This document shows positions 2,262 to 17,818 of a stretch of DNA of 34,205 nt, in pieces. The DNA is taken from positions 1-34,205 of the IMG/VR virus record IMGVR_UViG_3300042401_000164; one strand, 5' to 3'. The notes under the pieces are model-generated. The model saw only the letters and a program-made list of their open reading frames with translations. It was not told the DNA's origin and made no database searches. Each line of letters opens with the position of its first letter. The first letter of the stretch is position 1. The position numbers were made by a program, and so were the translations under genes. The stretch comes from a virus.

Positions 2262-2336
2262 TGGTGCCCACAGAGGGAATTGAACCCCCACTCAAGGAAT
2301 TATGAGTTCCCTGCTTTACCATTAAGCTATATGGGC
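2262..2336 (-). tRNA. tRNA with CAU anticodon (Met or Ile2)
   Basis: Acceptor stem GCCCATA/TGTGGGC, discriminator A and encoded CCA (2262-2264). The anticodon stem GGGAA/TTCCT holds loop CTCATAA, giving CAU. The T loop is TTCAATT. It could be elongator Met or the lysidine-modified Ile tRNA for AUA; sequence alone does not decide, though T4 carries an Ile(CAU). It is set apart from the main tRNA cluster and squeezed between two protein genes, with one base to the stop of the upstream gene. Confidence 0.92.
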
Positions 2337-2337
2337 G

Positions 2338-2532
2338 TTATTTAACATATTCTAAAGAATCTTTACGCATCCATTTTAACATGCGGCCTCTAGGAATAGG
2401 TATCTGTTCCGCCACAGGCAGAAATAGTACACCATCAATCTCTTTGGGATCCCAATCAGATTGAGTAAAATAGATTTCACTTGGGTTCAAGCGGTTGCGT
2501 AATTTGCGAATGGAAGTTTTAACAGTTTTCAT
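2338..2532 (-). CDS. Small basic protein of unknown function
   Basis: This 64-aa protein has a basic N-terminus (MKTVKTSIRKLRNRLNP) and a C-terminal half with LFLPVAEQIPIPRGRMLKWMRKD. No family is recognised. The ATG at 2532 is only about 3 bases from the predicted start of the exact-consensus promoter at 2542-2570, so the mRNA would be nearly leaderless; no Shine-Dalgarno site is visible. Being first under so strong a promoter suggests immediate-early expression, and the basic character would fit nucleic-acid binding, both inferences. Confidence 0.65.
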   Translation of the reverse strand: MKTVKTSIRKLRNRLNPSEIYFTQSDWDPKEIDGVLFLPVAEQIPIPRGRMLKWMRKDSLEYVK

Positions 2533-2541
2533 AATGACACC

Positions 2542-2570
2542 ATTATACAACAAAAAAAGGGGTCTGTCAA
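2542..2570 (-). promoter_or_regulatory. Exact-consensus sigma70 promoter fused to a terminator
   Basis: -35 TTGACA (2565-2570), 17-bp spacer, -10 TATAAT (2542-2547): all 12 hexamer bases match. The -35 hexamer is exactly the loop of the terminator hairpin at 2557-2578, and the spacer contains that hairpin's 3' arm and T-run. It drives the 64-aa gene, tRNA(CAU), dCMP deaminase and the SprT-like gene. Confidence 0.9.
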
Positions 2571-2578
2571 GACCCCTT
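2552..2578 (-). terminator. Intrinsic terminator overlapping a promoter
   Basis: A perfect 8-bp stem AAGGGGTC/GACCCCTT has loop TTGACA and is followed by a run of T residues. It ends transcripts from the Hsp20 unit. The same bases form the -35 box and spacer of the next promoter. Confidence 0.92.
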
Positions 2579-2582
2579 ATGG

Positions 2583-2669
2583 TTATCTACCTTTTAAGGT
2601 ACGGTCTGACCTGTGTTTCTTGATAGCCTCTATGGCTTCCAATATACTTGAAAATAGTTTTTTAAACAT
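2583..2669 (-). CDS. 28-aa small protein downstream of Hsp20
   Basis: The frame MFKKLFSSILEAIEAIKKHR... ends SDRTLKGR. Its ATG overlaps the stop of the Hsp20 gene (TAATG), and AAGGA lies about 6 bases upstream within the Hsp20 gene, so translation is probably coupled. The terminator follows at once. The sequence predicts a short amphipathic, basic helix. No family is recognised, and its short length is the main doubt. Confidence 0.5.
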   Translation of the reverse strand: MFKKLFSSILEAIEAIKKHRSDRTLKGR

Positions 2670-3109
2670 TAGTCTTCCTTTGTTTGAATGGAAATTTTCT
2701 TGATGGCGTCTTGAGCCTTCACCATATTTTCCAACCACACCTTAAGCATACCATTAACCAATTCAGCATTTTTAATTTCAATCGTATCCTTCAATGTGAA
2801 GGTGCGTTCAAATGCACGGTTGGCAATACCTTTGTAGAGATAGTCCTGGTTATCATCCTCTTTAGAGGCACCTTTGATGGCCAACTTATTACCTTCCATG
2901 GTAATTTCAATATCAGATTTTCCAAATCCAGCAACAGCCATTTCGATGACGAACTTGTTGTCTTTGATTTGTTTGATATTGTATGGGGGATAAGTTGGTA
3001 CAGATTTCGCAATATCTTTGGTTGCAGCTTGCAACATATCGGTAATCTGGTCTAGACCAATCATGTTTGGGTACAGTTGGTCGAATTTTGGAAACAGTAA
3101 TCCTGTCAT
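2669..3109 (-). CDS. Hsp20/IbpA-like small heat-shock protein
   Basis: This 146-aa alpha-crystallin-type chaperone resembles bacterial IbpA: YPPYNI near residue 43, AVAGFGKSDIEI in the core, and GIANRAFERTF followed by the NGMLKVWLE stretch. Such proteins hold unfolding proteins and prevent aggregation; T4-like marine phages often carry one. The start is the ATG at 3109 with AAGGAG 6 bases upstream. Expression is probably strong: an exact-consensus sigma70 promoter and a late-type TATAAATA both lie just upstream (3169-3197). It forms a unit with the 28-aa gene. Confidence 0.9.
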   Translation of the reverse strand: MTGLLFPKFDQLYPNMIGLDQITDMLQAATKDIAKSVPTYPPYNIKQIKDNKFVIEMAVAGFGKSDIEITMEGNKLAIKGASKEDDNQDYLYKGIANRAFERTFTLKDTIEIKNAELVNGMLKVWLENMVKAQDAIKKISIQTKED

Positions 3110-3141
3110 AGTTTTCTCCTTAAAAAGCAAGATTAAAAAAT

Positions 3142-3163
3142 TGCCGCCTCAAAGAGCACGGCA
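3142..3163 (-). promoter_or_regulatory. 5'-terminal hairpin with U-run in Hsp20 leader
   Basis: TGCCG/CGGCA (3159-3163 with 3142-3146) plus inner CTC/GAG folds right at the predicted RNA start (near 3162) and is followed by six T residues. It could stabilise the 5' end of the mRNA or act as an early terminator/attenuator. Confidence 0.45.
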
Positions 3164-3168
3164 CCATT

Positions 3169-3197
3169 ATTATAGTATTATTTATACAGGTTGTCAA
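3169..3197 (-). promoter_or_regulatory. Exact-consensus sigma70 promoter with embedded late promoter
   Basis: -35 TTGACA (3192-3197), 17-bp spacer, -10 TATAAT (3169-3174), 12 of 12. The spacer contains TATAAATA (3179-3186), the exact T4 late promoter read by gp55. The regA stop codon TGA lies inside the -35 box. The Hsp20 gene could thus be transcribed early and late. Confidence 0.85.
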
Positions 3198-3601
3198 GCT
3201 GGTTGTGGTTTTTTACCAATATTGTACTTTGGAGTTAATTGCCACTCATTCTTCTCTTTATGAGAAAGAATCTTTACCTGTGAAAGAAAGATAGGTGCAG
3301 GTACCTCGGTCTGTTTCTTGTTGACAATCTTTACTAGACCCCAATCTTCCAATAGGTTTGCAATAGCATTCCTACGTGATAGATCATTTTCGGTAATGTC
3401 GGTTGGTTTACCATCTAGGGCAAACAACTCTTTGAAATGTACCACATAGTATTGACCACGTTTGTGGAGTATGTGGCAAGATTGATATAGTGTCTTGTCC
3501 TTCTTGGACGCAACACCGATCCGTGTCAGTGTTTCACGAACTTTTAAAAAATCATCTTTTTCATCCAATGTCACTTCAACTAGGTCTTTAATGTCTATCA
3601 T
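3194..3601 (-). CDS. regA: RegA translational repressor
   Basis: This 135-aa protein is strongly T4 RegA-like (122 aa), matching ETLTRIGVASKKDKTLYQSCHIL, YYVVHFKEL, LLEDWGLV and the C-terminal W.L.PKYNIG. RegA binds the start regions of early phage mRNAs, including its own and those of clamp and clamp-loader genes, and shuts off their translation late. Its ATG overlaps the end of gene 62 by 14 bases. Unlike T4, gene 43 (DNA polymerase) does not follow; Hsp20 does. The C-terminus has a short extra tail (GKKPQPA). Confidence 0.95.
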   Translation of the reverse strand: MIDIKDLVEVTLDEKDDFLKVRETLTRIGVASKKDKTLYQSCHILHKRGQYYVVHFKELFALDGKPTDITENDLSRRNAIANLLEDWGLVKIVNKKQTEVPAPIFLSQVKILSHKEKNEWQLTPKYNIGKKPQPA

Positions 3602-8313: not shown

Positions 8314-9579
8314 TTATCTACCAACTTGTGGTAGATATTTTGCCTTGGTTTCTTCCCAAGACAGGTATATCAAGTCATCATAGAACAATGATTCATAAGA
8401 TACATTGTTCTTTTTCTTCAACATTGATATACGTCCTTTGGCATATTTGGTTTTCCAAATGTTTGCCAAAGTTTCAGTACTGGTATCAAATGATTTGACC
8501 AGTTCTTTATCACCAATTTCTTTCCTGAGAAATTCATTGGTGTTATTGTAGAGAGGTGAAAAATAGATACCTCTCTGATGCTCAGTGCGAATCAATTCTT
8601 TTGGTATTCCTAATTTAGAATATGCAAAGTTTAGTGACCGATTCTTATGGTCACGTTTAAGTGGCAAACCATTTTGATTCTTGGCTTCCCACCATTCGAA
8701 ATATTTACGAGTGTGATTTTCTTTGATCCAATCAAAGATCATCTTCATAGTCTTCCTAGTGGGTTCGAAAGCAACCGAGCCACTAGAGAATCCCATTTTG
8801 TTCCAATGTTCCAGGCCATCATATTGAGATAGACCATTAGACTTGGTATTACCATATAAAGAGGTTGTAGTGACGCCAACCAGTGTATCTCCATAACGAA
8901 CCTTCCAATCATTTTGTACTGTATCAGATAGACATAATAATGCCAACAATTTGCCACCCATATAATTAAATCCTAACGGCTGTAGTGGTACAATTGTTGA
9001 ACCTATGGCCGTGTGATTAATCATTCCTTGTTGCGTCTTAACATCTCTTGGCCAACCAATTGCAGAATCTCTTGGAGTTAAATCCAAGAAGTCGGACGAT
9101 ATACAAATAACACCAAGGTATTTTCCTGATTGACCATCAATTACTGTGTAAAACAGATTGCGGCCAATGTTACTATTGTTTTTCATTGTAGATGAGAATG
9201 TACGAATAGTGTTCCAGGTTTCTGCACCAGTACCATTTGATATTTGTAGAATAGGTCTTAACTTTTCATAATCATCTGGACTTTCTGGCATCCAGAAATT
9301 CTTTTTAACCTTCTCAACCAAATTCTTTTGTGTTATATCAATCAACTGTTTATCATCACCAAACAGTGTGGTAATTGTACGTGTTGGATACTTCTCCTGT
9401 ACCTCACACCATTTCTGATATAAGGTATACTCACGCACATCCATTTTGGATGCATATGTCAAATTTTGAATGAGAGTTTCTTTTAATAACTCTGTGTCAA
9501 TATGTTCAAATCTGGATGCATCATTGGTTCTCGACCACACATCCCATTGAGCATCAACATAATCTATAGGTGTTGCCAT
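8314..9579 (-). CDS. DruA/DUF4338-like protein
   Basis: This 421-aa protein has a central block resembling DUF4338, the family of DruA from the Druantia anti-phage system: GRNLFYTVIDGQSGKYLGVI near residue 138, then LTPRDSAIGWP, a hydrophobic/Pro stretch, WKVRYGDTLVGVTTTSLYG near 223 and W..MGFSSGS. In bacteria DruA is needed for Druantia defence, but its biochemical activity is not established. A stand-alone copy in a phage could interfere with a host system, exclude other phages or process nucleic acid. Its ATG overlaps the peptide deformylase stop (TAATG). The family call is from memory of the motif pattern. Confidence 0.55.
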   Translation of the reverse strand: MATPIDYVDAQWDVWSRTNDASRFEHIDTELLKETLIQNLTYASKMDVREYTLYQKWCEVQEKYPTRTITTLFGDDKQLIDITQKNLVEKVKKNFWMPESPDDYEKLRPILQISNGTGAETWNTIRTFSSTMKNNSNIGRNLFYTVIDGQSGKYLGVICISSDFLDLTPRDSAIGWPRDVKTQQGMINHTAIGSTIVPLQPLGFNYMGGKLLALLCLSDTVQNDWKVRYGDTLVGVTTTSLYGNTKSNGLSQYDGLEHWNKMGFSSGSVAFEPTRKTMKMIFDWIKENHTRKYFEWWEAKNQNGLPLKRDHKNRSLNFAYSKLGIPKELIRTEHQRGIYFSPLYNNTNEFLRKEIGDKELVKSFDTSTETLANIWKTKYAKGRISMLKKKNNVSYESLFYDDLIYLSWEETKAKYLPQVGR

Positions 9580-10964: not shown

Positions 10965-12679
10965 TTTGCAATCCTTGAAAAGTTTCCTTTTTTCTCAAAC
11001 TTAATAACCGAACGGAACTTGTCAAATAACTGGTCACCTTTGTGAGAGATAACAAACACGTTGGTGTCTGTTCCCATTTCATGTATCAACTTTAGAAATT
11101 CTTCTGTGCCTACTGTATCAAGGCTAGAATCAAATACCTCATCAAGTATCAACAAATTAGTATTGGTACTATTTTTTAGTTTGGCAATCTGTCGCCAAGT
11201 AAACAATAGGGCCAAGTCAATACGCATTTTCTCACCTTCGGAGAAATTGGCATAAGAGAATTCATCACGGTGCCTACTCTTAATTGTTTCTTCAAAGTTT
11301 TCATTGATGTTGAAGTTAACAAAGAAGTCCATTGCAGACAAGTACTTGTTAATCAACTTATTCATGATTGGTAAGTATTGTTTAATGATCCGTGTCTTAA
11401 TGCCACCATCTTTCAATAAACTACCTGCAAATTCATGATAATGTTTTTCTATCAAAACACTTTCATAGTTTGTCTTATACTCATTCAATGCGGCATTCAA
11501 CTCAATTAACTTCTGGTCACCGCCTTCCGTGCCAGTCTGTTTGTTGGTCAACTCATCTATCTCATTGTTTAATTTAGTGATGTAATTGCTTATTGCCGAT
11601 ATAGTAGAAGTGTGTTTAATAATTTCACCACTGTGTTCACTAATGTGTGTAATGATATCCGTAATAGATTTCATTTCAGTAGTTACTTTGTTTAACTCCT
11701 GCTCAATCTCAACCAAGCCAGTTTTTTGTGTGGTAATTTTTTGTGATTTTTCTTGTACCTGAGAATCTTTCCACTCAGGTGTAATGGATTGTTTACATGT
11801 TGGACAATCGTGGTTGGTTTCATAAAAGTCAATCTCTTTTTGATTTCGGTCAATATTAGTTTGTACTTTACCTTTAATTTGAAATAAGCCTTTGGATTTT
11901 TTATCCAGTTTCTCTTTCTTATCACCAACCTTATTCTGTAGTACTGCAATATGTTTGTTAATCAATTGAATATCATTTTGCAATTTGCCCATTTGCATCT
12001 TTGATTTTCCAATTTCTTCCCGTTTGCGGTTGATATCTGCATCATGGTTCTTTTTGTGTTCTTCAATGTTTTGTTTTTGTAATGTTATCTTTTCTTCCGT
12101 AAGAGAAATGGCATACTTAGATTTACTTAAATCATCTTTGATGGCCGAATTCTTCTCTTTGATAACATTGTTCATTGAAGAAAAGATTTGAATATCTAAT
12201 AGGTCTTCAATGATTGCTCTGCGGTCTGATGCTGATAATTGCATGAATGGAACAAAGGATGCTGAACCAAGAATGACAACCTGCGTAAAAGACTTGTAAT
12301 TTAATTTGAGAATATTATTCTCTAGTATCTCTTGATAGTCTTTTGCAGCTGCATCTTGGTTCAGCAATACATCATTCAGATAAATTTCAAATACGTTTGG
12401 TTTAATACCACGAATGACCTTGTATTTCTTTTGGCCAATATTGAAATGTACTTCAATAACAGCTTCTTTATTATTAACGGAATTTAGTAATTGTGGTTTG
12501 TTGATTTTACGAAAAGGTTTACCAAACAATCCAAAACACAGTGCATCCAAAATTGTGGATTTACCTGCACCATTGTGGCCAATAATCAATGTATTATTAG
12601 ACTTGGTAAAATCAATCTCAGTAAAATGAGCTCCAGTAGAAAGTAAATTCTTCCACTTAATCTTTTGAAATAAAATCAT
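10961..12679 (-). CDS. 46: Recombination endonuclease subunit gp46 (Rad50/SbcC-like)
   Basis: This 572-aa protein matches T4 gp46 (560 aa). Walker A GHNGAGKST is at 34-42, the long middle is coiled coil with zinc hook CPTC at 291-294, and the C-terminal part has the ABC signature FSEGEKMR and Walker B LLILDEVFDSS. With gp47 it resects DNA ends for recombination-dependent replication and host DNA breakdown. The ATG overlaps the gene 47 stop (ATGA). An internal exact-consensus promoter within gene 47 may add transcripts for it. Confidence 0.97.
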   Translation of the reverse strand: MILFQKIKWKNLLSTGAHFTEIDFTKSNNTLIIGHNGAGKSTILDALCFGLFGKPFRKINKPQLLNSVNNKEAVIEVHFNIGQKKYKVIRGIKPNVFEIYLNDVLLNQDAAAKDYQEILENNILKLNYKSFTQVVILGSASFVPFMQLSASDRRAIIEDLLDIQIFSSMNNVIKEKNSAIKDDLSKSKYAISLTEEKITLQKQNIEEHKKNHDADINRKREEIGKSKMQMGKLQNDIQLINKHIAVLQNKVGDKKEKLDKKSKGLFQIKGKVQTNIDRNQKEIDFYETNHDCPTCKQSITPEWKDSQVQEKSQKITTQKTGLVEIEQELNKVTTEMKSITDIITHISEHSGEIIKHTSTISAISNYITKLNNEIDELTNKQTGTEGGDQKLIELNAALNEYKTNYESVLIEKHYHEFAGSLLKDGGIKTRIIKQYLPIMNKLINKYLSAMDFFVNFNINENFEETIKSRHRDEFSYANFSEGEKMRIDLALLFTWRQIAKLKNSTNTNLLILDEVFDSSLDTVGTEEFLKLIHEMGTDTNVFVISHKGDQLFDKFRSVIKFEKKGNFSRIAK

Positions 12680-13746
12680 GCTTGTTCAGTATTCAGTGCC
12701 TCTACGTAGAGTTCTTTCAATAATGTTTTTAACCGGTCGTTGTCAATACTTTCTTCTGTAATGCCATCAACATACTTGTTTAATATGGTGAGTGTGTCTT
12801 CCGCTTCATCAACCACTTCATCACCATCTTCCAAGTCTGTAAAATCTTCAGCAATTGTAATGTCTGCTGGGTTCACATTATACAGGTTATTCATGAACTT
12901 GTCAAACAAATACGGATTGGTTTTGTTTATTACAACCACTTTCACATAGGTGTTTGTATATGGTTTGAAATCCATACCATCAAGTTCTTTAATGGTATTC
13001 ACTTTGTCATCGTACATAATACGATGAAACATCTTGTTTGGATTCTCTATGAATTCAAGTTGGTGAGTATCCAAATCAAACAAATGAAAACCCCGAGGGT
13101 CATTATAATCTTGCCAAGTAAGTTCGTACGGATTTCCCAAATAGTAGATATCATCACTAGAAGATTTGTGATGGTAATGACCACTAAAAGTGTGACTAAA
13201 CTTCCTAAAAATTCCACGATCTAACCCTCCTTCAGATGGCATGCCACGATACATGGCAAAGCCCGCAATTTCAAAATGGCCCATACAAAACTTTGCATCG
13301 GTGCCCTTTAATGTCTGTAAAGAATCTTCATAATTTTCTGCACAAATCCAAGGCATCATACAAATCTTATGTGGTCCAACATATATTTCGGCTGGATGGT
13401 CAATAACATTTAATGTGATACCATACTCACCAAGAAGTAAGTCGGATGAATTAACATCATTGGTATTCTTAAAGTAAGTATCGTGGTTACCGGCCAACAT
13501 ATGCACCTGTATACCCATTTCAGATAGTGGATCAAAGAACATTTCTTTGGTGCGTTTCAACGAAAAGAAATTGATGTACTTTCTACGATCAAAGGTATCA
13601 CCAAGAATCAATAGTGTTTCGATCTTTTCCTTTATCAGTGTCGGAAAGAATGTTTCTTTATAAAACTTCTCATAGAAATCTAAGAAAAGTGTGGAATCAT
13701 TTCTTGCACCAAAGTGTTGGTCAGTTATTATTGCTACTTTTGACAT
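12676..13746 (-). CDS. 47: Recombination endonuclease subunit gp47 (Mre11/SbcD-like)
   Basis: This 356-aa protein is close to T4 gp47 (339 aa). The calcineurin-type phosphoesterase motifs are in order: ITDQHFGARND near residue 7, LGDTFDRR near 47, AGNHDTY near 84, and GHFEIAG and GHYHHK farther on, with the metal-binding Asp, His and Asn. The start overlaps the cytidylyltransferase gene end by 13 bases. Residues coding LYN near the C-terminal third overlap a -10 box (12877-12882). Confidence 0.96.
   Translation of the reverse strand: MSKVAIITDQHFGARNDSTLFLDFYEKFYKETFFPTLIKEKIETLLILGDTFDRRKYINFFSLKRTKEMFFDPLSEMGIQVHMLAGNHDTYFKNTNDVNSSDLLLGEYGITLNVIDHPAEIYVGPHKICMMPWICAENYEDSLQTLKGTDAKFCMGHFEIAGFAMYRGMPSEGGLDRGIFRKFSHTFSGHYHHKSSSDDIYYLGNPYELTWQDYNDPRGFHLFDLDTHQLEFIENPNKMFHRIMYDDKVNTIKELDGMDFKPYTNTYVKVVVINKTNPYLFDKFMNNLYNVNPADITIAEDFTDLEDGDEVVDEAEDTLTILNKYVDGITEESIDNDRLKTLLKELYVEALNTEQA
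12877..12905 (-). promoter_or_regulatory. Exact-consensus promoter inside gene 47
   Basis: -35 TTGACA (12900-12905), 17-bp spacer, -10 TATAAT (12877-12882), 12 of 12, within gene 47 coding sequence. The bases after the -10 (GTGAA) match those after the promoter at 8264-8269. It would start RNA near 12870 and feed gene 46 and the genes beyond. Confidence 0.7.
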
Positions 13747-17789: not shown

Positions 17790-17818
17790 ATTATATCACA
17801 AAAGTATTAAACTGTCAA
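17790..17818 (-). promoter_or_regulatory. Exact-consensus sigma70 promoter of uvsY
   Basis: -35 TTGACA (17813-17818), 17-bp spacer, -10 TATAAT (17790-17795), 12 of 12. The -35 box is also the penultimate coding triplets (Leu-Thr) of the tube-like gene upstream. It separates the early recombination module from the late virion module. Confidence 0.9.

Follow-up and report, generated by a model that had tools for sequence, protein, structure and literature searches.

A putative nested terminator-promoter at a gene boundary of a T4-like phage and its relatives

Can the same few bases end one transcription unit and begin the next? The question is raised by a locus in a virus record, the window (the whole stretch of DNA analysed, 34,205 bases), which comes from a T4-like phage: it encodes members of the RegA, gp44 and gp62 families, and also of the T4-type families for major head protein, scaffold, portal and tail sheath. 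An earlier note, made from the letters of this DNA, had described at the locus an 8-bp terminator stem that encloses exactly TTGACA, the −35 box of the next promoter, with the T-run and the 3′ arm of the stem forming the 17-bp spacer to TATAAT. The element is very probably a nested terminator-promoter, which would function as a terminator when it is RNA and as a host-sigma70 promoter when it is DNA.

Anatomy of the element and its surroundings

The strand, which the earlier note did not give, is the minus strand, on which positions 2578–2542 (37 bases) read AAGGGGTC-TTGACA-GACCCCTT-TTTTT-GTTG-TATAAT. The features of the locus are the following:

2669–3109, minus: upstream gene, Hsp20 (PF00011, E = 1.1e-17)
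2583–2669, minus: mini-ORF of 28 aa (from the sequence)
2571–2578, minus: left arm of the terminator stem, AAGGGGTC (from the sequence and from paired changes among relatives)
2565–2570, minus: −35 box TTGACA, at the same time the terminator loop (promoter match 12/12)
2557–2564, minus: right arm of the stem, GACCCCTT, at the same time the first part of the 17-bp spacer (from the sequence)
2552–2558, minus: terminator T-run of 7 T, inside the promoter spacer (from the sequence)
2542–2547, minus: −10 box TATAAT (from the sequence)
2535, minus: predicted transcription start, 7 nt after the −10 box (from the sigma70 spacing rule and the sequence)
2338–2532, minus: downstream gene of 64 aa (MKTVKTSIRKLRNRLN...), start codon 9 nt after the −10 box

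The stem of 8 bp with TTGACA as its exact loop (2578–2557, minus strand) and the spacer of exactly 17 bp made up of 3′ arm and T-run are both there as had been described, and the element does lie between two co-directional genes, with Hsp20 and the mini-ORF upstream and the 64-aa gene downstream. The first two T of the T-run also pair in the stem. In sigma70 promoters the spacing rule puts the transcription start about 7 nt after the −10 box, from which the start at 2535 is predicted. When the element is folded as RNA, an extra U-A pair from the hexamer closes, resulting in a stem of 9 bp with a loop of 4 nt; a 59-nt stretch with the hairpin folds at −19 kcal/mol (z = −2.9), and only 1 of 200 shuffles folds equally well. 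A cmscan of positions 2300–3300 for Rfam families (E ≤ 1) found the neighbouring tRNA only.

The ATG of the mini-ORF overlaps the stop codon of Hsp20 (TAATG) and is preceded by a purine-rich stretch, and its own stop codon is separated by 4 nt from the stem and by 50 nt from the next start codon; a PHROG search with it gave no match. The 64-aa gene has no match in Pfam or PHROG, and the relatives in its family start at the corresponding ATG. Elsewhere in the window (8314–9579, minus) a protein is encoded that matches Pfam DruA (PF14236, E = 9e-20), a component of the Druantia defence, here in a phage genome.

A chance origin of the nested element is excluded by shuffling. The window has one nested element with a 12/12 promoter, as compared to 0.000 on average in 150 dinucleotide shuffles of the window, in which nested elements number 0.007 per shuffle at ≥11/12 and 0.040 at ≥10/12. 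Perfect promoters of the form TTGACA-N17-TATAAT are found five times in the window, all on the minus strand, versus 0.027 times per shuffle; the other four have no enclosing stem, and in five relatives (85–114 kb) 4 of 30 perfect-promoter loci are nested, which means that the nested form is not the usual promoter design of this phage. One of the four (12877–12905, minus) is located within an ORF (12676–13746), and its 29 bases are identical in the relatives G001, G002 and G005 and differ in one base in G004. Another (17790–17818, minus), again non-nested, has an ATG 9 nt after its −10 box, as has its counterpart in G001, so that near-leaderless starts in this phage may perhaps not be limited to nested elements.

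Conservation and exchange at the Hsp20 locus

A relative of the Hsp20 gene is encoded at 467 loci, of which the best 80 were compared. From these L141 and L183 were left out because the sequence ends before any −10 box could show (a 9-bp stem around TTGACA is visible in L183), which leaves 78 informative loci. The earlier note had held that relatives with one half alone would speak for chance overlap. Both hairpin and promoter are kept in 76 of the 78 informative loci (best 80 of 467), the exceptions being one of each kind: L151 has kept an 8-bp stem with the loop TTAACT and no −10 box, and L182, whose promoter is perfect, lacks the stem around it. The gene directly after the stem of L151 is a relative of the deaminase of the window (118 of 172 aligned residues identical). 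In a second count, from which L151, L141 and L183 were omitted, 76 of 77 loci are nested (best 80 of 467), L182 being the miss. The nested element is found at most 330 nt from Hsp20 in 67 of the 78 informative loci and, in nine others (L142–L145 and L152–L156), 410–510 nt downstream behind other genes (both among the best 80 of 467). Ten Hsp20 relatives had been scored as promoter-less; for nine of them this was an artefact of the search range, a wider look finding the element.

The 76 loci (best 80 of 467) contain 39 unique elements, in which the −35 box is TTGACA (33) or TTGACT (6) and the −10 box is exactly TATAAT in 34. The start codon follows the −10 box after 6–11 nt in 34 of these 39 elements and after 25–31 nt in 5 (best 80 of 467). 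With a transcript start at 7 nt, a distance of 6–11 nt corresponds to a leader of 0–5 nt, and we infer that the mRNA made from the element at the Hsp20 locus is near-leaderless.

Behind their stem, the elements at the Hsp20 locus have the T-run that is expected of a terminator. This has a bearing on the idea that the inverted repeat surrounding the −35 box might be extruded as a DNA cruciform and take part in promoter recognition, by analogy with phage N4, which has hairpin promoters. The T-run argues against it, and a full-consensus promoter with a 17-bp spacer needs no cruciform, so that this reading appears very improbable.

The stem was evaluated with a score which, like its cut-offs, is our own choice and under which at most two hexamer bases may pair. 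Of the 37 unique elements that lie no more than 330 nt from Hsp20 (best 80 of 467), 35 score ≥18; when the left arms were dealt among those 37 elements, the mean was 10.7 (sd 2.5, maximum 18; 500 runs). Where the register makes the hexamer the loop (14 unique rows), changes on both sides are seen at pairs 2 (TA/CG/GT), 3 (GC/CG), 5 and 6 (both GC/AT); where the loop is longer by two bases (10 rows), the same holds for pairs 2, 3 and 5; and in a third register (8 rows), in which the last two bases of TTGACA pair, there is variation at pair 6 alone. The register shifts, as the three loop forms indicate, and the hairpin stays centred on the −35 box. Since close relatives keep both halves although the letters of the hairpin change, the overlap of terminator and promoter at the Hsp20 locus looks selected rather than accidental.

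The element is also a place where relatives part company. Pairwise identities on its two sides were determined for the 435 pairs formed by 30 of the 76 loci. For example, L148 and L150 share 40 of the 41 bases of the element and are 91% identical upstream of it and 51% downstream, L161 and L165 are 91% identical upstream and 52% downstream, and L146 and L165, the other way round, 52% upstream and 85% downstream. Behind the same type of element three different downstream gene families are found (Hsp20 loci, best 80 of 467). Such chimeric relatives are taken as the products of putative crossovers at the element. Among pairs with ≥80% identity on one side, identity drops to ≤60% across the element in 18 of 35; by the same criterion the Hsp20 start gives breaks in 12 of 62 and the interior of Hsp20 in 0 of 52, the pairs in all three counts not being independent. 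Breaks are therefore more common at the element, yet they also occur at a boundary without one.

Compactness together with recombination might by themselves account for the geometry: the element would be the shortest possible boundary, and TTGACA, T-run and TATAAT would be short homologies that serve as crossover points. The chimeric joints, the three gene families and the excess of breaks over those at the Hsp20 start (in pairs that are not independent) are in favour, and the explanation deserves to be taken seriously, although we rather doubt that it suffices, because it leaves the paired changes in the stem unexplained: stems with changed letters still pair, for which selection on the hairpin is needed.

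Recurrence in other viruses and in cultured phages

Judged from sequence, the nested geometry recurs in other phages beyond the Hsp20 locus. A scan of viral sequences with the pattern GGTCTTGACAGACC, in which the stem is included, gave at least 120 hits; among the matches listed TATAAT follows at exactly 17 bp in 58 of 120, with a T-rich spacer in 52 of the 58. Because this pattern presupposes the stem, viral contigs were also scanned with a stem-blind pattern, TTGACA-N8-TTTTT-N4-TATAAT, which yielded at least 120 stretches; 4 of them, shared with the first scan, were omitted, and the remaining 116 minus duplicates and edge hits left 114 to be scored. The control was the same pattern with AAAAA (at least 120 stretches, 115 scored). 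Among the matches listed, the stem score was ≥18 in 41 of the 114 T-run hits versus 2 of the 115 A-run hits, and with a cut-off of 15 in 46 versus 7; when the arms were swapped within the stem-blind viral set, the mean was 5.1 (sd 2.1, maximum 11; 300 runs). Looked at from the terminator side nesting is rare, with 1 of 62 terminators nested in DNA from the A-run control set.

The gene neighbourhoods of the viral elements differ, as is evident from the diverse PHROG types next to them: 20 large proteins on loci of the nested type were queried and 16 had a match, among them gp44-type clamp loaders, photosystem II D1, tail proteins, DNA polymerase, thymidylate synthase-like proteins and RtcB. Both flanking genes are on the strand of the element in 29 of the 41 nested and in 41 of the 68 stemless cases (matches listed; crude ORF calling), a contrast too weak for same-strand gene context to count as proof; the other 12 nested elements lie inside an opposite-strand ORF (5), between divergent (3) or convergent (2) genes, between genes both on the opposite strand (1) or at an edge (1). 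The start codon is 21–29 nt after the −10 box in 27 of the 41 nested viral elements listed and 6–9 nt after it in 7. A near-leaderless start as a property of the whole class is ruled out by these 27 elements and is rather a trait of the Hsp20-locus lineage.

Many copies per genome seem unlikely, the number being low where looked at: exactly one copy of GGTCTTGACAGACC was found in 13 of 16 records and none in 3, a count that covers one stem alone in records that are fragments, the 3 zero-copy records having been chosen for other stems. A further nested element (L625), built on a different stem, is present in record G008. In a 257-Gb genome collection, GGNCTTGACAGNCC-N13-TATAAT was found at 64 loci, only 6 of which have ≥5 T within 6 bases of the spacer, which argues against a common element of bacterial chromosomes; since the pattern used for the viral sequences was a different one, a direct comparison of the two collections is not warranted. 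None of 34 terminators at bacterial loci was nested. A few loci do look nested, such as L484 and L498 on contigs of Clostridia/Lachnospiraceae, with long G+C-rich stems and T-rich spacers. In six recurrent viral promoters (L274, L292, L304, L310, L312 and L314) TTGACA is immediately preceded by a small hairpin (CTGG..CCAG or similar), and the spacers are first C-rich and then T-rich; these may be a branched form of the nested element.

Using the element as query, BLAST found 16 phage records, and five of these phages were examined. The Synechococcus phages S-CREM1, S-CAM3, ACG-2014h and Sf-CH11 have GGGGTC-TTGAC[AG]-GACCCC followed by a T-run, with a weaker −10 box (CATACT, 4/6) at 17 bp. Acinetobacter phage Phab24 (93.6 kb) has, between primase/helicase and DNA polymerase, GAGGTC-TTGACA-GACCTC-TTTT with TATAAT at 16 bp. 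The same junction is present in 6 records, 4 of which were examined. In MD-2021a and Ab5 it reads GAGGGC-TTGC-GCCCTC-TTTTT plus TATAAT, the stem being altered on both sides, and here no recognisable −35 box and no promoter reaching 9/12 were found; in Edwardsiella phage ET-ABTNL-9 it has TTGACA with TAGCAT at 17 bp and no stem. The association that holds at the Hsp20 locus is thus loosened here: Phab24 is nested, whereas MD-2021a and Ab5 have the stem and TATAAT with no recognisable −35 box and ET-ABTNL-9 has a stemless promoter-like site, so that in the Acinetobacter/Edwardsiella lineage the two halves part.

This separation, like that in L151 and L182, together with the fact that terminators and promoters are both common signals, is what can be said for a mere chance overlap of an ordinary terminator with an ordinary promoter. 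Against it stand the shuffles, the A-run control, the swapped arms, the conservation at the Hsp20 locus and the covariation in the stem, and it is scarcely credible as an explanation.

In a strict scan for terminators, none was nested in T4 (0/17), KVP40 (0/32), S-PM2 (0/12) or RB49 (0/24), nor in Phab24 (0/6), the T-run of whose element is too short for the scan; nested terminators were found in S-CREM1 (1/12), S-CAM3 (3/18) and ACG-2014h (3/11). S-CREM1, S-CAM3, ACG-2014h and Phab24 were chosen for their BLAST match, and their counts are therefore not rates for phages at large. A second way in which stem and promoter can overlap was seen in RB49 (L650, minus, two sites) and S-CREM1 (L631, plus), where the spacer of a perfect TTGACA/TATAAT promoter is itself a hairpin, for example GGGGATCGGTGATCCCC (−10.4 kcal/mol); a similar spacer hairpin, with a TTCG loop, is present in G013.

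Possible function and comparison with known elements

In the RNA of the Hsp20 operon the element would act as a Rho-independent terminator, the hairpin being followed by a U-run. In the DNA it would act as a host-sigma70 promoter, the −35 box of which is the terminator loop, the spacer the 3′ arm plus T-run, and the −10 box the sequence behind the T-run. One code is at the level of RNA and the other at the level of DNA, and for this reason the same bases can preserve the two together. The Hsp20/mini-ORF unit would in this way be split from the next unit on one strand within 50 bp, and the new mRNA would start almost at its start codon. Polymerase at the promoter and a passing elongation complex might, as the earlier note proposed, compete for this DNA. 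We infer from the letters that termination, initiation, early timing and leaderless translation would come together at the element.

To the nested terminator-promoter a further step could be added: RNA polymerase that has stopped at the U-run might stay on the DNA and re-engage sigma70 there, so that the handover would couple both units and the nested geometry would have been selected for it. RNA polymerase often stays on the DNA after intrinsic termination and can reinitiate (PMC6978380, PMC6978322), usually at the closest promoter (PMC11347151); the expected release point would be about 15 bp from the predicted start. However, the reach of reinitiation is estimated at about 1000 bp (PMC11347151), within which promoters that are side by side with a terminator would be reached too, making nesting unnecessary for a restart, and restarts are reported to run mostly in the reverse direction (PMC6978322). 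We therefore consider this addition unlikely.

A nested terminator-promoter would be a natural case of a short DNA that is under two selections, one for an RNA hairpin and one for a DNA promoter, and that is retained although its letters change. Provided that it both terminates and initiates, the element could be a test bed for polymerase competition and post-termination reinitiation, a compact part for gene circuits that combines insulator and promoter, and a marker of module boundaries in environmental phages. The widest proposal would be a recurring class of phage gene boundaries, with terminator, −35 box, spacer, −10 box and start codon in about 50 bp, at which the polymerase that ends an early transcript is handed to the promoter there and makes the near-leaderless mRNA of an exchangeable gene; taken as a whole, it has a small chance of being correct.

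With which known elements can the nested terminator-promoter be compared? An ordinary tandem of Rho-independent terminator and sigma70 promoter has the same signals in the same functional order, without the sharing of bases seen here. The recycling and reinitiation of RNA polymerase (PMC6978380, PMC6978322) also link a terminator to a nearby promoter and are a process rather than a sequence element.

The closest known kind are the PeSLs. It is said that these promoter-early stem-loops were described by Arbiol et al. in 2010 and by Comeau et al. in 2014 in the T4-type phages RB49 and phi1. In PMC4503421 they are cited as composite promoter/stem-loop elements of T4-like phages, present at high density in shuffled regions of other T4-like phages. 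The earlier view that the geometry is not a standard phage element can accordingly be upheld in part, for composite elements of this kind had been published (PMC4503421), while in the literature searched, which included PMC4503421, PMC2988021, PMC5931544, PMC5348500, PMC1524935, PMC11347151, PMC7698491, PMC6978380 and PMC6978322 but few subscription papers and neither of the primary PeSL reports, no description of a −35 box as terminator loop was found.

The likeness is considerable. At the level of sequence the element combines, as a PeSL does, a strong, host-like sigma70 promoter with a stem-loop terminator; it lies between genes of a T4-type phage; and it appears to be a joint for the exchange of gene modules, as far as pairs that are not independent suggest. 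The differences are in geometry and density. In RB49 a promoter (≥10/12) with the centre of its −35 box 20–49 nt downstream of the loop centre was found at 11 of 24 terminators, and in three clear cases in the first 50 kb the hairpin ends 12–16 nt before the −35 box. The terminator is there upstream of the promoter and beside it (0 of 24 enclose one), an arrangement taken as criterion from the RB49 sequence itself, whereas in the window the hairpin loop coincides with the −35 box, and the T-run falls within the spacer. As to density, there is one nested element in the 34 kb of the window. Because of these two differences the element is not classed as a PeSL. It probably works like one, and nested and side-by-side arrangements would thus be two geometries of one composite kind.
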